From positions 124,001 to 188,000 of the forward strand of contig WYBP01000018.1 in the NCBI GenBank assembly GCA_011525845.1: DNA of 64,000 nt, in the 5' to 3' direction. The translations under genes and the position numbers were made by a program. The stretch is from Gemmatimonadaceae bacterium (GTDB lineage Bacteria; Gemmatimonadota; Gemmatimonadetes; Gemmatimonadales; Gemmatimonadaceae). This document shows, piece after piece, positions 1,884 to 11,024 of the stretch; positions within the stretch are counted from its first letter, which is position 1; each line of letters begins with the position of its first letter. A model generated the notes under the pieces. The model made no database searches. It saw only the letters and a program-made list of their open reading frames with translations, and had not been told where the DNA came from.

Positions 1884-3986
1884 TCACCCCGCGACGCGGA
1901 TCTCGACCAGGTTGTCGTAGAACACCGCGCCCGCACCCATGTCGGTGAGGCGCTGGCTCGTCGTGGTGTTCACGTTCACCCCATCCTTCGAGAGCTTGGC
2001 CCACCAGACCCCCGGCGCCCACGCGACCCCCTCGCGGATCCCCTCGCGATGGCGGGCGGTGGCGGTGAAGTGGCCGCGGTCGTTCTCGACCACGACGCGC
2101 GCGCCGTCCGCGATCCCGCGGCGCTGCGCGTCGGTCGGGTGGAGCGCCACCTCGGGCTCGCGCGCCGCGCGCTGCAGCGGACCCACGTTCACGAAGCTCG
2201 AGTTAAGGAACTGGTGCGCGGGGGAGGAGATGAGCGTGATCGGGTACCGCTTCGCCAGGTCGGGCGAGAGCTCGACCGACTCCACCATCGGCGTGTAGGT
2301 CGGCACCGGGTCGAGCCCCATCTCCTTCAGCCGCTCCGAGTAGAGCTCGCACTTCCCGCTCGGCGTGTGGAAGCCGCCGTTCGCGAACGGGGCGTAGGGG
2401 CGCGGCACGTCGAGCCGCACCCAGCCGTCGCGCTCCAGGCGCTCGAGCGTCACGGAGCGCATCTGCGGCGCCGTCGTCTCCAGGGCCTGCGCGATCAGCG
2501 CATCGTCGTCGTCGGCGAGGCAGGGGTGGTCGAGCCCCATGCGGGCGGCGAGCCGGCGGAAGATCTCGGTGTTGGGCAGCGCCTGGCCGAGCGGAGCGAT
2601 CGCCGGCTTGTTGAGTGAGGCGTAGAGGTGGCCGTACGACCAGTGCAGGTCGCGGTGCTCGAGCTGGGTCGTCGCCGGGAGCACCCAGTCGGCGTAGTCG
2701 CAGGTGTCGGTGCGGAAGTGCTCCAGCACCACCGTGAAGAGGTCGTCGCGCTTGAGGCCGCGCACCACGGCGTGGTGGTCGGGTGCGATCGCGCCGGGGT
2801 TCGAGTTGTAGACCACGAGGGCACGCACCGGGGGCCCGCCGATACCCGCGTCGGGCTTCGTGAGCGCCTCGCCGAGCAGTGACATGTTGATCATGCGCGT
2901 GCCGGGCGGCGAGAGATCCGGGCGCTGCAGCTTCGCCTTGTTGAACGCGAAGTTCCCGCTCGAGGAGAGCTGCACGCCCCCACCCGGGCGCCTCCAGTGC
3001 CCCGTGACGGCCGGTAGGCAGGCGATCGTGCGCACGGCCATGCCGCCACCCGCATGCCGCTGGAGGCCGTAGTTGATGCGCACGAACGCGGCGCGCGCCC
3101 TGCCGTACTGCCGGGCGAGCTCGACGATCCGCGCCTCGGGGATCCCCGTGATCGCGGCGACGCGCGAGGGCGGGTACTCCTTCACCCGCGCGCGCAGCTG
3201 CTCGGCGCCGATCGTGTGCCGTGCGAGGTAGTCGTCGTCCTGCATCCCCTCGGCGAAGAGCACCTGCATCATGCCGAGCGCGAGCGCGGCGTCGGTGCCG
3301 GGCCTGATGCCGATCCACTCATCGCACTGCTCGGCCGTGCGCGTCCGGATCGGGTCGATGCAGATGACCGGCGCGCCGCGCTTCTTCGCCTCGAGCACGT
3401 GCGGCCAGAGGTGCGGGTTGCTCGTGAGCGTGTTCGTGCCCCAGAGGATCACGAGGTCGCTCTCCGGGAGCGATTCCGCGTCGGCGCCGATGCTCGCGCC
3501 CACCGTCATCCGCATCCCGATCATCCCGGCGCTCGCGCAGATCGTGCGGTCGAGGAGCGAGGCGCCGAGCACGTGGAAGAAGCGGCGGTCCATCGACTCA
3601 CCCTGCAGGAGCCCCATCGTGCCCGCATACGAGTACGGGAGGATCGCCTGCGGGCCGTCGGGCGAGCGACGGATCTCGTTGAGCCTCGCCGCGATCGCGT
3701 CGAGCGCCTCGTCCCAGGTCGCCTCGACGAACTCACCGCGTCCCTTCGGGCCGACGCGCTTGAGCGGCGTGAGGACGCGCTCCGCGTGATAAGTGCGCTC
3801 GAGATAGCGGTTCACCTTCGTGCAGAGGAACCCCTGCGTGAAGGGATGGTCGGGGTCGCCCTGGATGCGCGTGGCGCGTCCCCGTTCCACGGTCACGAGC
3901 GTCGCGCACGTGTCGGGGCAGTCGTGTGGGCAGGCGCCGCGCACGACGTGTGAATCACCGACTGGTGCCGCGACCGCAGGGTTCAA
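1884..3986 (-). CDS. Molybdopterin-dependent oxidoreductase
   Basis: Up to 700 residues. The N-terminus carries a [4Fe-4S] site, CPHDCPDTC with a fourth cysteine at LCTK (Cys19, 23, 27 and 55), followed by the bis-MGD binding folds of the DMSO reductase/formate dehydrogenase superfamily (WGTNT, near residue 190; CIDPIRTRTAEQ) and a C-terminal molydopterin dinucleotide-binding domain with the usual ALHPTDAQRRGI stretch. There is no Tat signal, so it is probably cytoplasmic. No FeS or membrane subunit is adjacent, so its electron partner is unknown; substrate cannot be assigned. The longest frame begins with TTG at 3986; a GTG at 3944 is an alternative that keeps all four cysteines. It has no strong Shine-Dalgarno sequence at either start. 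Confidence 0.88.
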   Translation of the reverse strand: MNPAVAAPVGDSHVVRGACPHDCPDTCATLVTVERGRATRIQGDPDHPFTQGFLCTKVNRYLERTYHAERVLTPLKRVGPKGRGEFVEATWDEALDAIAARLNEIRRSPDGPQAILPYSYAGTMGLLQGESMDRRFFHVLGASLLDRTICASAGMIGMRMTVGASIGADAESLPESDLVILWGTNTLTSNPHLWPHVLEAKKRGAPVICIDPIRTRTAEQCDEWIGIRPGTDAALALGMMQVLFAEGMQDDDYLARHTIGAEQLRARVKEYPPSRVAAITGIPEARIVELARQYGRARAAFVRINYGLQRHAGGGMAVRTIACLPAVTGHWRRPGGGVQLSSSGNFAFNKAKLQRPDLSPPGTRMINMSLLGEALTKPDAGIGGPPVRALVVYNSNPGAIAPDHHAVVRGLKRDDLFTVVLEHFRTDTCDYADWVLPATTQLEHRDLHWSYGHLYASLNKPAIAPLGQALPNTEIFRRLAARMGLDHPCLADDDDALIAQALETTAPQMRSVTLERLERDGWVRLDVPRPYAPFANGGFHTPSGKCELYSERLKEMGLDPVPTYTPMVESVELSPDLAKRYPITLISSPAHQFLNSSFVNVGPLQRAAREPEVALHPTDAQRRGIADGARVVVENDRGHFTATARHREGIREGVAWAPGVWWAKLSKDGVNVNTTTSQRLTDMGAGAVFYDNLVEIRVAG

Positions 3987-4579: not shown

Positions 4580-5557
4580 TCAGCGATCGACGGTGCTCGG
4601 CTCGCCCATGCGCATCACGCGCGCGCGGAGCTCGGCGCCGTCCACGCCGACGCGCACCTCGCTGCCGGGCGCGACCTCGCGCCGCACCATCGCGATCGCG
4701 AGCGGACCCCGCGCCGGCGAGAGCACGCTCGAGCGCACGTCGCCGACCTCCTTGCCGTCGGCGTCGTGCACCGGCGCTCCCACGGGAAGCGGCGCCTCGC
4801 TCAGCAGCCAGCGCAGGTGCCGGTTCACGTGCCCGCGGAAGTGGATGCGCGCGACCACCTCCTGCCCCGTGTAGCATCCCTTGTCGAAGGCGATCGCGCC
4901 GAGGTCGTCGAGCATCGCCTCCTGCGGGATCGTCTCCCCGTCCATCTCGCGGCCCCACGCGGGGACCCCGGCTTCGATGCGCGCGATCTCCGCGCGCTCC
5001 GCCGACGCCATCGTGATGCCGGACGCTTCGAGCATCGCACGCAGCGCGGCGATCCGTGCCGTCGCACCGATGAGATCGAAGCCGCCCGGCGCCAGGTCGG
5101 TCGAATGCACGACCAGCACCGCGGCCTCCCCCTCCGCGGCGGTGAGCGCGCACTGGGGGTCGAGTGCCGCGAGGGCTGCCGGGTCGGTCCCGGTCGCGCG
5201 CGCCACCAGCTCCACGCACGCCCCGCGCTCGCCGTACACGCCGAGGCACGACGTCGTCGCACGGACGTCCGCGTACTTGGCCAGCCGCGGATTCACGTAC
5301 TTCCGGATCATCGCGACGAACCCCTCCGCCGAGGCCGCGTCGGTGTCGACGAGCAGGTCCGCGCCCCGGTCGATCACGCGCAGCAGCGCGATCACCCGTC
5401 CCTTCGGGGTGAGGGCCGCGGCGCGGACCCCGCGACCCGGGGTGAGCGACACCACGTCGTTCGTGAGCAGCCCACCGAGCGTGGCCTTCGCCGCGTCGCC
5501 GCCGAAGGTCATGCGGAGGCGCGGGGATCGATCGACCAGGAACGGGGCGTCGCTCAC
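4580..5557 (-). CDS. ygfZ: YgfZ/GcvT-family folate-binding protein
   Basis: 325 residues from GTG at 5557, which overlaps the stop of the HAD gene as GTGA. The family signature KGCYTGQE lies near residue 225, with the conserved cysteine; the fold is that of the aminomethyltransferase GcvT without its catalytic context. YgfZ proteins bind tetrahydrofolate and help maintain or repair certain iron-sulfur enzymes in the cytoplasm. Here it closes an operon containing glcF, an eight-cysteine iron-sulfur protein, a plausible client. Length matches the family. Confidence 0.88.
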   Translation of the reverse strand: MSDAPFLVDRSPRLRMTFGGDAAKATLGGLLTNDVVSLTPGRGVRAAALTPKGRVIALLRVIDRGADLLVDTDAASAEGFVAMIRKYVNPRLAKYADVRATTSCLGVYGERGACVELVARATGTDPAALAALDPQCALTAAEGEAAVLVVHSTDLAPGGFDLIGATARIAALRAMLEASGITMASAERAEIARIEAGVPAWGREMDGETIPQEAMLDDLGAIAFDKGCYTGQEVVARIHFRGHVNRHLRWLLSEAPLPVGAPVHDADGKEVGDVRSSVLSPARGPLAIAMVRREVAPGSEVRVGVDGAELRARVMRMGEPSTVDR

Positions 5558-6243
5558 CGGCGTCCTCCCGTCGAGACCCCCGTCAGCGCGCGCACGCGCT
5601 CGGGGGTGAGGTCGGCGAGCGATTCCACCCACGCGTCGGCCTCGAGCGCCTCGTGCGCGGGGACCGCGCCGACGGCCACGCACGCGATGCCGGCGGCCCG
5701 GGCACCGCGCAAGCCCACCACGTGATCCTCCACCGCGAGCGCCCGGAGCTGCTGTCCCGGGAAGAGCTGGCCGATGCGCGCGAGCGCGGCGCCGTAGGGC
5801 GCGGCGGCGGGCTTGGCCGGCGTGGCGTCCTCCACGGCGATGATCGGCCGGAAGAGCCCGGCGAACCCGCCGAGTTCGAGCACGAACTCGACCTCGCGGC
5901 GCGAGGCCCGCGTCACGATCGAGAGCCGGCAACAGGAGGTGAGGCGCTCGAGCGCGGCCCTCACGTCCGGCGCGAGCGTCATCCCCTTGCCCGCGCGCGC
6001 GGCGAAGGCGCGTTCCGCGCGGAGCCGGCCGAGCTCGGTCGCGGTCTCGTCGGCGGGTGCCCCGGCCGCTTCCCGCACACGGCGCACGGCGTCCTCGGTG
6101 GCGTATCCCGCGCCGATCCGCGCCAGCGCGTCCGTGAGCTCGATCCCTTCCACGGCGAGCGACTCCGCCAGCGCCTCGCGGCGCAGCGCGGCCGTGTCCG
6201 CGATGACGCCCTCGAACTCGACGAGCAGGACCGGGACTTCCAT
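5554..6243 (-). CDS. HAD-superfamily protein with Glu in place of the catalytic Asp pair
   Basis: 229 residues. The fold of a beta-phosphoglucomutase/phosphoglycolate-phosphatase type HAD is clear: motif II SIVTRAS, motif III lysine in ATPAKP, motif IV VEDHVVGLRGARAAG. Motif I, normally DxDGV, reads VEFEGV: both aspartates (positions 9 and 11) are glutamates, confirmed from the codons gag ttc gag. The first Asp is the nucleophile in this family, so ordinary phosphatase activity is doubtful. It sits directly after glcF, where a phosphoglycolate phosphatase would make metabolic sense. TAGCAT ends 6 bases before the ATG; its TAG is the glcF stop. It overlaps ygfZ by GTGA. Confidence 0.8.
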   Translation of the reverse strand: MEVPVLLVEFEGVIADTAALRREALAESLAVEGIELTDALARIGAGYATEDAVRRVREAAGAPADETATELGRLRAERAFAARAGKGMTLAPDVRAALERLTSCCRLSIVTRASRREVEFVLELGGFAGLFRPIIAVEDATPAKPAAAPYGAALARIGQLFPGQQLRALAVEDHVVGLRGARAAGIACVAVGAVPAHEALEADAWVESLADLTPERVRALTGVSTGGRR

Positions 6244-6249
6244 GCCCGA

Positions 6250-6255
6250 ATGCTA
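6250..6255 (-). promoter_or_regulatory. -10 hexamer TAGCAT for the HAD/ygfZ pair
   Basis: TAGCAT, 6 bases (TCGGGC), then ATG at 6243. The first three bases are the stop codon of glcF. It would allow the HAD-ygfZ pair to be transcribed apart from glcDEF as a leaderless message. Confidence 0.4.
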
Positions 6256-7518
6256 ACGGGGGGGCGCGCCCCGGGCGTACCCCTCGTCGAGCAGCTCCAC
6301 GGGATGCCGTGCGACGACCGCACGCTTCTCGAGCGTCAGGCCGCCGCCGATCTGCATGAGGCACCCGGGGTTCCCCGTGGCGACGACCGCCGCGCCGGAC
6401 TCGGCGATGCGCGCGAGCTTGGGCGCCAGCACCCGCTCCGCCACGTCGGGCTGCACGAGGTTGAAGATCCCGGCGCTCCCGCAGCACTGGTCGGCGTCCG
6501 CGAGCGGGACGAGGACCACATGGCCGAGCGCGGCGAGCACGGCGCGCGGCGGGTCCACCACGCGCTGTGCGTGCTGCAGGTGGCAGGGAGCGTCGTACGC
6601 GACGCGGGCGCGTTCGCCCGACGCGAGGGTGGGCCGGGGACCCGCCGCCGCGAGCAGCTCGTGCACGTCGCGCACGCGCGCGGCGAAGCGCACGGCGCGC
6701 TCCGCCCACGCCGGGTCGTGCTGCAGGAGGTGGCCGTACTCCTTGCACATCGCGCCGCACCCGGCGGAGTTCACCACGACCACGTCCGCGGCACTGGCCT
6801 CGAACGCGGCGATGTTCGCGCGGGCCAGCGCTCGCGCGGCATCGGCCTCGCCGGCGTGCGCGTGGAGCGCGCCGCAGCAGCGCTGGCCGTTCGTCGCCGT
6901 CATCCGCCAGCCGTTCACCGTGAGCGTGCGCTCGGTGGCGCGGTTCACGTCGGTGAAGAGCCCCTCCATCACGCAGCCGGTGAGGAGCGTCGCCGTCCCG
7001 CGTTCCCCGTCTCCCGCGGGTGTCCAGGCGGGCCGTGACTCACGGCGCGTGGATGCCAGCATCGCGAACGGCATCGCCACCCGTCGTGGGAGCACCCGCG
7101 CGAGCAATGCCGCGAGTCCCGAGCCGCGCGCGAGGCGTGCCTTGAGGAGTGCCACGCGCAGCAGGAAGGGGCGCGCGAAGATCGCGAGCACCAGTCGCGC
7201 CACCCAGGGGAGCGGACGGGTGGCGACGAGGGTCTCGCGCGTCGCCTCCAGGAGGTGGCCGTAGGGGACACCGCTCGGGCACGCCGTCTCGCATCCGCGA
7301 CAGCCGAGGCACTTGTCGAGATGGTCCCGCACGAGCGGATCGTCCCTCTCCACCGTGCCATCGAGGAGGGCGCCCATGAGCAGCAGGCGACCGCGGGGCG
7401 AGTCGTTCTCGTCCTCGAGGGCGAGGTAGGTGGGGCAGGCGGGGAGGCAGAAGCCGCAGTGCACGCAGGCGTCGAGCCCCGCGCGCGCGCGGTCGAGGGG
7501 GGATCCTGCGAGGCTCAC
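6253..7518 (-). CDS. glcF: Glycolate oxidase iron-sulfur subunit GlcF
   Basis: 421 residues from GTG at 7518, overlapping the glcE stop as GTGA. Two [4Fe-4S] ferredoxin motifs are seen (Cys18, 21, 24, 28 and Cys70, 73, 76, 80), followed by two CCG domains with QRCCGALHAHAG and DQCCGSAGIF. This is the electron-transfer subunit that takes electrons from the GlcD/GlcE flavin subunits and passes them to the quinone pool at the membrane. Length and order match the glcDEF family. Confidence 0.93.
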   Translation of the reverse strand: MSLAGSPLDRARAGLDACVHCGFCLPACPTYLALEDENDSPRGRLLLMGALLDGTVERDDPLVRDHLDKCLGCRGCETACPSGVPYGHLLEATRETLVATRPLPWVARLVLAIFARPFLLRVALLKARLARGSGLAALLARVLPRRVAMPFAMLASTRRESRPAWTPAGDGERGTATLLTGCVMEGLFTDVNRATERTLTVNGWRMTATNGQRCCGALHAHAGEADAARALARANIAAFEASAADVVVVNSAGCGAMCKEYGHLLQHDPAWAERAVRFAARVRDVHELLAAAGPRPTLASGERARVAYDAPCHLQHAQRVVDPPRAVLAALGHVVLVPLADADQCCGSAGIFNLVQPDVAERVLAPKLARIAESGAAVVATGNPGCLMQIGGGLTLEKRAVVARHPVELLDEGYARGAPPR

Positions 7519-8447
7519 GCGGCGTCCCCGAGCAGGCCGGGGTTCAGGAGGCGCGCGGGGTCGAACCGCTCCCTGATCCGCAGCGAGAGGGCGTTCCAGT
7601 CCCAGCGGCGCGCGCGGTCCTCCGGTGCGAGGCGCGCCCGCACGGCGTTCCAGATGGCCGGATCCGCGGGCCGGGCGTCCCCGCACGCCGCCAGCCGCGA
7701 GCGCGACTCCGCGACGAACGCCGCGTTCCCCCCGACGCGCACGAGCGCGCGCGCCGACCCGTCGAATCCGAGTGCGCCGGCGCTCGCAGCGCCGAGCCGG
7801 ACGATCGCCATCGGCGCGAGGGGACCGCGGGCGAACGCGTCGAGTGCGGCACGAAGCCGCTCGACCCCCGCATCATCCGCGTGCAGCACCCAGCTCTCCT
7901 CCCCGGGAGGGAGCGCACGCAGCCGCAGGTGCAGCCGCGTGAGGACGGCGAGCGTGCCCCACGACCCCGTGAGTGCCCGCGTCAGGTCGAATCCCGCGAC
8001 GTTCTTCACCACGCGTCCGCCCGCCACCAGCGTGCGCGCGCGCCCATCCACCGCCTCCACCCCGAGCACGAGGTCGCGCGGGCGGCCGAGCGCCGCCGCG
8101 CAGGGGCCGTCCGTGGCGGTCGCGACCGTGGCGCCGACGGTGCCGGTGTCATCCCCCCACGGAAGGAGTGGGCACCACTGCCGGTGCGCGCGCGTGACCT
8201 CGTCGAGCTCGGCGAGGGTCGTCGCCGCGCCGACGCTGATCGTGAGGTCACCCGGCGTGTGCGCATCGACTCCCCGGAACGCCTCGAGCGAGAGCGGTTC
8301 CGCGTCCCGCACCGGATGTCCCGCGTCCATCCACGTGCCGGCGCCGCGGATGCGCAGCCGTGCGCGGCGTGCGGACGCATCGCGCACGAGCGCCGCGAGC
8401 TCGGCGGTCCCGGCGGGCGTGTGCGTGGGGCCTCCGGGAGCCGTCAT
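7515..8447 (-). CDS. glcE: Glycolate oxidase FAD-binding subunit GlcE
   Basis: 310 residues from ATG at 8447, overlapping the glcD stop as ATGA. It has the PCMH-type FAD-binding fold, with RGAGTWMDAG near residues 34-43 and GRVVKNVAGFDLTR in the middle, and ends in a short FAD-linked oxidase segment (DPARLLNPG). It is shorter than GlcD, as expected for GlcE. With GlcD and GlcF it oxidises glycolate to glyoxylate. Confidence 0.92.
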   Translation of the reverse strand: MTAPGGPTHTPAGTAELAALVRDASARRARLRIRGAGTWMDAGHPVRDAEPLSLEAFRGVDAHTPGDLTISVGAATTLAELDEVTRAHRQWCPLLPWGDDTGTVGATVATATDGPCAAALGRPRDLVLGVEAVDGRARTLVAGGRVVKNVAGFDLTRALTGSWGTLAVLTRLHLRLRALPPGEESWVLHADDAGVERLRAALDAFARGPLAPMAIVRLGAASAGALGFDGSARALVRVGGNAAFVAESRSRLAACGDARPADPAIWNAVRARLAPEDRARRWDWNALSLRIRERFDPARLLNPGLLGDAA

Positions 8448-9889
8448 CGCGCGACGGCCTCGCGGGCGAGCGCGCGCGCCGCCGGCGCGGCATGCCATTC
8501 CCGGCAGGCGCGCACCGGCACGACCTTCCCGGGGTTCGCCCTCCTCGAAGGATCGAACACGTCGCGCAGCGTGCACATCGCGTCGAGCGTGTCGGCCGTG
8601 AAGAGCGCATCCATATAGGGCAGCTTGTCGAGCCCGACGCCGTGCTCCCCGGTGATCGTCCCGCCCTCTGCGATGCAGCGCGTCATGATCTCGCGCATGG
8701 CGCCGTGCACCCGGCGCGACGCGTCGGGGTCGTTCGCGTCGTAGGGGATGTTCGGATGGAGGTTCCCGTCCCCGGCGTGGAAGACGTTGCACACCCGCAC
8801 GCCATGCCGCTCGCCGATCCGCCGGATCTCGTCGAGCAGATCCGCGAGCCGTGTGCGCGGGACCACGGCATCCTGCACCGCGAGGTGCGGCGCCACGCGC
8901 CCCATCGCGCCGAACGCCTTCTTGCGCCCCTGCCAGAGGCGCGCCCGCTCGGCCGCGTCGTGCGCGATGCGCACCTCGCGCGCGCCCGCGCCCCGGCACT
9001 CGGCCTCCACCGCGCGCGCGTCGTCCTCGAGGCCCGCCGCCGCGCCATCCACCTCGATGAGGAGCACGGCGGCCGCATCGCGCGGATAGCCGGCGGCATA
9101 GATGCTCGACTCCACCGCCTCGATCGTGGCCTGGTCCATCAGCTCGAGCGCGGCGGGGAGGATCCCCGCCGCGACGATGCGGGAGGTGGCATCCGCGGCC
9201 GCACGCACCGAGGTGAAGTCGGCGAGGAGGGTGATCACCCGCTCCGGGTCCCGGGTGAGCCGCACGGTCACGTCCACCACCACGCCGAAGCACCCCTCGC
9301 TGCCGACGAAGGCGCCGAGCAGGTCGTAGCCGCCCTCGTCGCCGCGGTCGAGGGTGGTGAGGGTTCCGTCGGGGAGCACCACGGTGGCCCGCACCACATG
9401 GTTGAGCGTGACGCCGTACTTGAGGCAGTGCGGCCCCCCCGCGTTCTCGGCGATGTTCCCGCCGATGGTGCACGCCGTCTGCGACGAGGGGTCGGGGGCG
9501 TAGTGCAGGCCGTGGGGCGCGACGGCGCGCGAGAGCGAGGCGTTCACCACGCCGGGCTCCACCGTCGCGGTGCGCGCCTCCGCGTCCACCGCGATGATGC
9601 GCTTGAGCCGGTGCAGGCCGAGGAGGGTCACGCCATCCGCGAGCGCACCCCCCGAGAGGCCGGTGCCCGCGCCCCGGGCGACGAAGGGCGCCTCCGCCTC
9701 CGCGAGCGCGCGCATCACCGCGACGAGTTCCTCGCGCGAGCCGGGGAAGACCGCGAGCGCGGGCTGCCGCTCGAGGCCGGGAAGGCCGTCGGACCGGTAG
9801 ACGAGCAGCGAGGAGGCGCGCGTCAGCACGTGCCGCGCGCCGACGATCCGCGCGAGGGTCGCGGCGAGTGCGGGGGCGTCAGGGTTCAC
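8444..9889 (-). CDS. glcD: Glycolate oxidase catalytic FAD subunit GlcD
   Basis: 481 residues from GTG at 9889. FAD-binding PCMH domain with VARGAGTGLSGGALADG and IGGNIAENAGGPHCLKYG, then the FAD-linked oxidase C-terminal domain with NVFHAGDGNLHPNIPYD, the GEHGVGLDK motif and a closing FDPSRRANPGKV. It oxidises glycolate (or D-lactate) in the cytoplasm. An upstream in-frame ATG at 9955 lies inside the terminator hairpin and is unlikely. TAGCTT ends 7 bases before this GTG and no Shine-Dalgarno sequence is present, which favours a leaderless start here. First gene of the glcDEF-HAD-ygfZ operon. Confidence 0.92.
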   Translation of the reverse strand: MNPDAPALAATLARIVGARHVLTRASSLLVYRSDGLPGLERQPALAVFPGSREELVAVMRALAEAEAPFVARGAGTGLSGGALADGVTLLGLHRLKRIIAVDAEARTATVEPGVVNASLSRAVAPHGLHYAPDPSSQTACTIGGNIAENAGGPHCLKYGVTLNHVVRATVVLPDGTLTTLDRGDEGGYDLLGAFVGSEGCFGVVVDVTVRLTRDPERVITLLADFTSVRAAADATSRIVAAGILPAALELMDQATIEAVESSIYAAGYPRDAAAVLLIEVDGAAAGLEDDARAVEAECRGAGAREVRIAHDAAERARLWQGRKKAFGAMGRVAPHLAVQDAVVPRTRLADLLDEIRRIGERHGVRVCNVFHAGDGNLHPNIPYDANDPDASRRVHGAMREIMTRCIAEGGTITGEHGVGLDKLPYMDALFTADTLDAMCTLRDVFDPSRRANPGKVVPVRACREWHAAPAARALAREAVAR

Positions 9890-9896
9890 GCGCGGG

Positions 9897-9902
9897 AAGC
9901 TA
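9897..9902 (-). promoter_or_regulatory. -10 hexamer TAGCTT for glcDEF
   Basis: TAGCTT followed by 7 bases (CCCGCGC) and the GTG of glcD at 9889. It lies just downstream of the terminator that isolates the operon from the sigma-factor gene. Confidence 0.5.
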
Positions 9903-9929
9903 GGCGCATCCCGCAGGCGGCGGAATGAC

Positions 9930-9968
9930 GAAGGGGGCCCGGACGCGAGTGGCATCCGGACCCCCTTC
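9930..9968 (-). terminator. Terminator of the sigma-factor gene
   Basis: GAAGGGGG/CCCCCTTC plus TCCGGA/CCGGA arms form a 14-bp stem with one mismatch around an 11-base loop. It lies 54 bases after the sigma-factor stop and before glcD. There is no long U-run on either side, so strength is uncertain. Confidence 0.6.
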
Positions 9969-10021: not shown

Positions 10022-10915
10022 TCAGGTGACCGCCCAGAATCCCGCCAGCGAACGCCCCTCGGGGGAGGTGCGCAGCTTGTCGAAGGCGCGCTCGCGGATC
10101 TGCCGGATGCGCTCGCGGGTCACGCCCATCAGCGCGCCGATCTTCTCGAGCGTCATCGCCTCGGCGCCCTCGTCGAGTCCGTAGTAGAGGTTGAGGATCT
10201 TGCGCTCGCGCGGCGTCAGGTACTGCTGGAAGACGCGGTCGATGCACTCGCGCATGAGCTTGAAGTCGGTGCGCTCCTCGATCTCCACGCCGTCGCCGCC
10301 GGCGAAGCGCTCGCCGAGGGTGCAGGCCTCGCGGTCGGAGCGGTCGACCGGGGCGTCGAGGGAGAGCTCGGTGGAGCTCATCGCCTTGGAGGCGCGGACC
10401 TGCTCCGGGCTCTCGTCGAGGAGGCGGCCGATCTCGCCGTCCGTCGGGTCGCGCTTCAGCACCTGGGCCAGCACAGTCTCCGCGCGGGAGAGGCGGATGA
10501 GCTGCGAGTTCTGGTTCAGCGGGATGCGGACCGAGCGGGTCTGCTCCGCCAGCGCCTTGAGGACTGCCTGGCGCACCCACCACACGGCGTAGGAGATGAA
10601 CTTCACGCCCTGGTCGGGATCGAACTTCCGGACCGCCTTGAGGAGGCCCTCGTTCCCGATGGCGACGAGCTCGGAGAGGTCGAGGCCGTGGCCCTGGTAC
10701 TTCTTCACGTAGGAGATCACGAACCGGAGGTTCGCGGTCACGAGCCGCTCGGCGGCGGCCTCATCGCCCTTCTGCGCGAGGCGGGCGAGCCGACGCTCTT
10801 CGGCGGCGTCGGTGATCAGCGGGAGCTTCTGGATGTCCTGGAGGTACTGGTCGAACGCGGATGAAGGTGAGGAACGGAAGTAGCCTTTCGATCTCGATTC
10901 AGTCGCGTGCTGCAT
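10022..10915 (-). CDS. Primary-type RNA polymerase sigma factor (sigma-70, RpoD/SigA-like)
   Basis: 297 residues from ATG at 10915, which follows GGGGTGGGT. Region 1.2 begins at SAFDQYLQDIQKLPL; region 2 has NLRFVISYVKKYQGHGLDLSEL and FISYAVWWVRQAVLKAL; region 4.2 ends with MGVTRERIRQIRERAFDKLR. Region 1.1 and the long non-conserved insert are absent, so it is short for an RpoD but complete for core promoter recognition. An in-frame GTG at 10993 would add 26 residues with no family similarity. Upstream there is its own promoter, downstream a hairpin: a monocistronic unit. It could be the housekeeping factor or a group 2 paralogue; the window cannot decide. Confidence 0.9.
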   Translation of the reverse strand: MQHATESRSKGYFRSSPSSAFDQYLQDIQKLPLITDAAEERRLARLAQKGDEAAAERLVTANLRFVISYVKKYQGHGLDLSELVAIGNEGLLKAVRKFDPDQGVKFISYAVWWVRQAVLKALAEQTRSVRIPLNQNSQLIRLSRAETVLAQVLKRDPTDGEIGRLLDESPEQVRASKAMSSTELSLDAPVDRSDREACTLGERFAGGDGVEIEERTDFKLMRECIDRVFQQYLTPRERKILNLYYGLDEGAEAMTLEKIGALMGVTRERIRQIRERAFDKLRTSPEGRSLAGFWAVT

Positions 10916-11024
10916 ACCCACCCCGTAGACCGCGTGTTGAATGAAACGGCCGACTTCGCCGCCAAACGCATTCAGGGACGTGATGCGAATCACCTATCTC
11001 GGGCCAGTACCGCCCGGGAGGCAT

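Follow-up and report, generated by a model that had tools for sequence, protein, structure and literature searches.

The window, i.e., the whole 64,000-nucleotide stretch of DNA that was analyzed, carries on its reverse strand a gene for a HAD-fold protein (N-terminus MEVPVLLVEFEGVIADT) that lies between glcF, the third of the glycolate oxidase genes glcDEF, and a ygfZ / GCV_T-like gene (Table 1). Phosphatases of the HAD type are very common, and HAD proteins usually receive that annotation. The genes around this one are tightly packed, with overlaps between glcD and glcE, between glcE and glcF, and between the HAD gene and ygfZ, and with 9 nt from glcF to the HAD gene. We refer to the operon position next to glcF and ygfZ as the slot and to the HAD genes found there in relatives as slot copies; the family and order names of the relatives' loci, Gemmatimonadaceae and Gemmatimonadales, are inferred. 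Beyond ygfZ, on the same strand, lies a molybdopterin oxidoreductase gene, whose link to the locus is conserved.

Table 1. Genes and residues of the glycolate oxidase locus (coordinates in the window; residue numbers are those of the HAD-fold protein)
Feature	Coordinates	Strand	Basis or remarks
Molybdopterin oxidoreductase gene, beyond ygfZ	1884..3986	-	Matched in 43/60 family loci; several of the others have short flanks
ygfZ / GCV_T-like gene	4580..5557	-	GTG start codon and HAD stop codon overlap in GTGA
HAD-fold protein, 229 aa, motif I E-x-E	5554..6243	-	ORF; Pfam; AlphaFold model
C1 cap, about residues 17-87			Limits by analogy with the cap T16-V87 described for beta-phosphoglucomutase (beta-PGM; PMC11283535)
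E172-D173, motif IV	5725..5730	-	Alignment
K144, motif III	5812..5814	-	Alignment
R115, after motif II	5899..5901	-	R in 70/71 slot, 23/23 sister and 15/22 D-x-D rows; not clade-specific
T111, motif II	5911..5913	-	Alignment
R75 to R78, cap helix	6010..6021	-	R75 in 66/71, R78 in 62/71 slot rows
D65	6049..6051	-	71/71 slot rows versus 10/23 sister rows; just before cap helix 66-84
R21	6181..6183	-	Clade-specific; R in 70/71 slot rows, H in 22/23 sister rows
E11 codon GAG, where the general acid/base Asp is expected	6211..6213	-	Alignment
E9 codon GAG, where the nucleophilic Asp is expected	6217..6219	-	Coordinates computed from the ORF start
glcF, glycolate oxidase Fe-S subunit	6253..7518	-	Ends 9 nt ahead of the HAD gene; GTG start codon deduced from its overlap with the end of glcE
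glcE, FAD-binding subunit	7515..8447	-	Named by position and FAD_binding_4
glcD	8444..9955	-	Family match
Sigma-70 family factor	10022..10993	-	Upstream neighbor in many loci

The protein belongs to the HAD fold, scoring above the cut-offs of the Pfam models HAD_2 (PF13419, 47.6 bits versus 23.8) and Hydrolase (PF00702, 39.7 bits versus 26.4). All 12 of its matches to NCBIfam models are below cut-off (HAD-SF-IA-v3, 19.4 versus 29.4), and with 43 bits against a cut-off of 180 it falls outside the phosphoglycolate phosphatase model TIGR01449. An AlphaFold model, for which the input consisted of 11 sequences (the window protein and the named loci), has a mean pLDDT of 85.6 and a pTM of 0.78 and places helices at residues 18-30 and 66-84, which would put R21, R75, and R78 on cap helices and D65 directly ahead of one.

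In a 116-row alignment, E9 and E11 align with both Asp columns of motif I, and T111, K144, and E172/D173 align with motifs II to IV. The initial annotation was therefore right in reading V-E9-F-E11-G-V as a change of both catalytic aspartates to glutamate with motifs II to IV intact: the D-x-D of a catalytic HAD is absent, and the motif II Thr/Ser, the motif III Lys, and the acidic pair of motif IV are all there. We found HAD matches in 80 of the 99 related genomes searched, and an alignment of the 30 best matches has Glu at position 9 in 29. The family level is represented by 71 slot copies, which are sampled copies and not every related match (60 from long loci and 11 from short loci, each of the latter with a glcF and/or ygfZ match in its stretch). 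Positions 9 and 11 read EE in 46 of these, AD in 10, ED in 6, DD in 4, DE in 3, and EH in 2, which gives Glu at position 9 in 54 copies and Ala or Asp in 17. At the genus level, E9/E11 is present in all 15 rows, and a local mutation or an assembly error as the source of E-x-E is rejected on that ground.

None of the 71 family copies has the canonical catalytic set. E9, E11, T/S111, K144, and E172/D173 are present together in 31 copies, which include the window's and 13 of the 15 genus-level rows. Motifs II to IV are intact in 31 of the 46 EE copies and 3 of the 6 ED copies; the remaining 19 copies have all lost at least one of them. Neither K144 nor D173 occurs in any of the 17 rows without E9, and in the four D-x-D copies K144 is missing together with the acidic residues of motif IV. 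Even so, among the 19 rows with a motif I other than EE or ED, R21 is kept in 18 (Lys in 1) and D65 in all 19. Ala takes the place of the nucleophile (A-F-D), with loss of motifs III and IV, in L107-L109, L111-L113, L117, L120, L094, and L097, and motif I reads E-F-H in L096 and L098, which form one small clade.

Copies from two other families of the order, which we call the sister copies and which were chosen by similarity, have D-x-N in 23 of 23 cases, with motifs II to IV intact. A glcF gene is found at 21 of these 23 loci, at times 0.7-2 kb off, and ygfZ likewise at 21, the remaining two being cut by contig ends. These loci (L127-L145, L179, L180, L185, and L186) carry a natural D10N-type HAD beside ygfZ, which may hold substrate or a slow phosphoenzyme. 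Non-slot HADs read D-x-D throughout, both in the alignment (22/22) and in a second background sample (25/25 readable non-slot HAD_2 loci among 30 examined of about 100 matches listed); the other five loci of that sample comprise three slot copies (one E-x-E, two D-x-N), one truncated copy, and one misread frame, and the two D-x-D background sets have at least three genes in common (L032, L191, and L206). Slot-like HADs outside the order were sought in 20 loci, part of a larger set of phylum-level matches to the D-x-N profile: 16 of these, namely L181 and 15 loci outside the order, read D-x-D and have neither a glcF nor a ygfZ match in their stretch, and the other 4 (L179, L180, L185, and L186) are the order members with D-x-N listed above.

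A maximum-likelihood tree built without the two motif I columns places the slot copies of the window's family in a single clade (100/99) and the D-x-N sister copies in another (99/100), with the D-x-D HADs outside. The tree omits the partial copies L046 and L157, the remnant L165, the D-x-D rows L124, L125, L175, L176, and L183, and the named loci L036-L045, so that G007 (as L036) is absent from it. EE occupies nearly all basal branches of the slot clade, the exception being the long-branched E-x-D copy L099. All remaining forms (D-x-E, D-x-D, A-x-D, E-x-H, and the rest of the E-x-D copies) branch from inside the clade, in which position 9 has changed at least five times. Read by parsimony, E-x-E is probably ancestral for the window's family, and the D-x-D slot copies would be secondary; having lost K144 and the motif IV acids, they do not look like active survivors. 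The initial annotation had named D-x-D in aligned orthologues as the observation that would speak against its reading, and D-x-D does turn up in 4 of the 71 copies, yet these are nested and lack motifs III and IV, and the sister copies are D-x-N, so that they do not refute it. The joint loss of E9 and motifs III and IV amounts to four independent pairs and is not significant in a phylogenetic test with so few events.

The slot can also be empty. Among 20 further loci, picked mostly for having no clear HAD match known, 18 have glcF and ygfZ matches less than 300 nt apart and no HAD match between them, and the other two hold a remnant (L165) and a truncated E-x-E copy (L157). The 18 empty slots, in which glcF adjoins ygfZ (L147-L156, L158-L164, and L166), come from several genera and reflect repeated loss of the gene. 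They indicate that ygfZ and glcDEF are independent of the HAD.

With respect to the partner of the HAD, all 60 long family loci have ygfZ downstream in the same orientation, and 59 have glcF upstream, at a distance of about 1.5 kb in L086 and L095; L099 is the locus without glcF. The HAD is found beside ygfZ in L099/G046, L110/G034, L179/G079, and L180/G250, and our search of these four genomes gave no clear glcF orthologue: the best matches, where there are any, reach E 1.1e-15 at most, with about 30% identity. In G152, G145, and G134, of which the G152 locus was read in detail, glcF is about 12 kb off and the HAD match and ygfZ are together. Thus, where the linkages to ygfZ and glcF are separable, the HAD stays with ygfZ. 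The E. coli homologue YgfZ is described as having a role in Fe-S enzyme biology (PMC10002905). The most likely partner, as judged from gene neighborhoods, would be YgfZ or the GlcF-YgfZ pair. However, ygfZ occurs in almost every genome (139 of 149), whether or not the HAD is there, and its linkage to the HAD may for this reason reflect only shared transcription. Furthermore, L099 and L110, the family copies without a clear glcF, sit on the longest branches of the slot clade (1.35 and 1.58), as though loss of glcDEF had eased the constraint on the HAD; this favors GlcDEF as the partner.

In the pairs tested, the slot copies evolve under purifying selection. Across the 11 computable of 15 pairs (10 family pairs and 1 D-x-N pair, with the window gene in none), HAD dN/dS is 0.055-0.302 by NG86 and 0.035-0.248 by YN00, and in most pairs it is near the glcF or ygfZ value of the same pair; in three (L103/L104, L111/L113, and L067/L070) it exceeds the values of the neighbors by a factor of about 1.4 to 3. 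The four family pairs with a motif I other than EE or ED (one D-x-D, one E-x-H, and two Ala) range from 0.055 to 0.142, with the two Ala-form pairs at 0.055 and 0.142 (NG86). Slot HADs thus combine what is expected of a HAD-fold pseudoenzyme, i.e., loss of catalytic residues, a conserved clade, and purifying selection, the last in pairs that exclude the window gene.

The most conserved columns of the slot clade are not those of the pocket. D65 leads, followed by T17, R21, and R115 (70 of 71 each), G87 (67), and R75, compared with 54 for E9, 49 for E11, 41 for K144, and 40 for D173. Ranked over the 229 columns, T17, R21, D65, R75, and R115 are within ranks 1 to 6, versus 33 for E9, 46 for E11, 73 for K144, and 76 for D173. 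The D-x-N and D-x-D groups show no variation in either motif I column, at K144, or at D173, and only weak conservation in columns 65, 75, and 78 (0.17-0.57). The set of T17, R21, D65, R75, and R115 is complete in 64 of 71 slot rows versus none of the 45 other rows. Together, these ranks and group contrasts indicate a shift of constraint away from the catalytic pocket and towards the cap with its hinge. R115 is no sign of a new role, since it is also common in the sister and D-x-D rows, and the conservation of D65 may come from simple helix capping. The idea that the gene was selected for a new role is borne out in part: a role other than that of a classical phosphatase fits a change that is old and family-wide, in a gene under purifying selection in the tested pairs, whereas the E-x-E pair as the new function itself is not supported, with Glu at position 9 only in the 54 copies, a rank of 33, and Ala in some lineages.

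Substitutions of this kind have been made in the laboratory. In the HAD phosphatase Pah1, D398E and D400E are each reported to nearly abolish activity, purified D398E having none, and limited proteolysis is reported to show unchanged overall structure for D398E and other mutants (PMC12357310). A lipin in which DIDGT is changed to EIDGT is used as the phosphatase-dead variant (PMC6161900). The sister families' D-x-N corresponds to D10N of beta-PGM, for which no proton transfer to the leaving group is described (PMC11283535), and crystals of CbbY D10N contain its bisphosphate substrate, according to their PDB titles. By analogy with these precedents, we infer that the window protein is not a phosphatase. 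We consider it fairly probable that the slot HAD is a pseudophosphatase of HAD subfamily IA, with nearest solved relatives of the CbbY/beta-PGM type, in which constraint has shifted towards the cap and which is more tightly tied to ygfZ than to glcDEF. The gene is probably kept under selection for a different, non-enzymatic job.

Such a protein would form no aspartyl-phosphate and turn over no phosphate ester. The pocket-complete copies (the 31 that include the window's, plus 3 E-x-D) may still bind a phosphorylated ligand, or Mg2+, with no turnover, and the remaining lineages, with the pocket partly or wholly gone, would be left with a cap-centered function alone. The retained job could be that of an accessory protein of the operon's Fe-S module, most likely with YgfZ and next to GlcF, a step about which we are less confident. 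Motifs II to IV are kept in 34 of 71 slot copies (31 EE and 3 ED), which counts against a pure scaffold, since a scaffold would not need them, and some residual or altered chemistry in slot HADs is conceivable from the sequences.

A protein that binds without hydrolysis could also be a sensor, in which the Glu form recognizes a phosphometabolite (phosphoglycolate or another sugar phosphate) and regulates glycolate oxidation. The joint retention of the whole pocket in 31 slot copies, including 13 of the 15 genus-level rows, fits this idea, as does the substrate held by CbbY D10N at a position that is naturally Asn in all 23 sister copies. We nevertheless regard it as unlikely, given that at least one of motifs II to IV is altered in 37 of 71 copies with the cap residues mostly kept, and that HAD-ygfZ pairs persist without a clear glcF orthologue. 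The phosphoglycolate sensor proposed in the initial annotation is possible and gained no positive support: the window's genome has no match to RuBisCO (PF00016), so that a photorespiratory source of phosphoglycolate is not seen, the TIGR01449 score is far below its cut-off, and the nearest solved relatives are CbbY proteins. A D-x-D PpaX/Gph-like gene does occur elsewhere in the window's genome (L032), itself below the cut-offs of both models. In addition, the glycolate used by Gemmatimonadota is believed to come from phytoplankton that release it (PMC10581226), and its use needs no phosphatase.

That the protein is an active enzyme, either using Glu as its nucleophile or following a different chemistry, strikes us as decidedly improbable. 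This reading would account for the persistence of E9/E11 with intact motifs II to IV over deep divergence (the 31 EE rows span several basal branches) and for the conserved charge at motif I, but it conflicts with the near loss of Pah1 activity upon a single D-to-E change at either motif I position (PMC12357310), with Ala or Asp at position 9 in 17 copies, and with the low dN/dS of the four pairs that are neither EE nor ED. Decay under relaxed selection after catalysis was lost, with the gene kept merely by its operon position, is the least probable reading and mostly refuted, because the empty slots and the L165 remnant, the drift of catalytic residues in several lineages, and the three faster pairs are outweighed by purifying selection mostly near that of the neighboring genes and by a residue set that 64 of the 71 slot copies have in common and that none of the 45 others has in full.

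Returning to the pseudophosphatase reading, we put forward its evolutionary course only tentatively: in Gemmatimonadales (inferred), a CbbY-like sugar phosphatase may have turned into a non-catalytic YgfZ partner serving glycolate oxidase, through natural changes to D-x-N (sister families) or E-x-E (the window's family) that equal laboratory inactivating mutations, after which constraint would have passed from pocket to cap, with some lineages dropping the pocket.

Among known systems, the best PDB sequence match of the protein is CbbY, a xylulose-1,5-bisphosphate phosphatase (PDB 4uar and 4uat; profile E 4.2e-21), which has the same fold (Foldseek TM 0.70-0.71; VIA Z 20.2, rmsd 3.6 over 212 residues). 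CbbY, however, has the Asp pair (its D10N form is a made mutant) and a RuBisCO setting, whereas the window protein has E-x-E, a different operon, and a genome without a RuBisCO match. The domain layout is also that of AlnB (VIA Z 22.1 over 208 residues) and beta-PGM (VIA Z about 18.6-21.4), and the pyrophosphatase BT2127 is at the top of the Foldseek results; the window protein differs from all three (HAD IA, C1 cap) in lacking the motif I Asp pair. The D-x-N sister clade differs in turn at position 21, with His where the slot clade has Arg. Gph (TIGR01449) is a distant homologue that would suit a location beside glcDEF metabolically, but the window protein lacks its catalytic Asp pair and scores 43 versus 180 bits. 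Our literature search for the slot HAD found no paper on the protein.

The term pseudophosphatase is used in PMC3827238 for phosphatase-like proteins mostly of the PTP type. The slot HAD resembles these in that the fold is kept and catalytic residues are lost, and it differs in being a bacterial, operon-linked HAD IA protein whose motif I change can be traced across families. Pseudoenzymes as such are known; what is new here, and both real and conserved, is that a HAD IA phosphatase fixed in one operon has probably become a pseudoenzyme, with several forms alive in relatives. A single operon position allows one to trace how the catalytic pair was lost, with a D-x-N sister and with Glu, Asp, and Ala forms among the orthologues, which makes the slot HAD a good case for asking why a phosphatase fold persists once its chemistry is gone, and it offers a specific candidate for an additional factor in the biology of glycolate oxidase and YgfZ.
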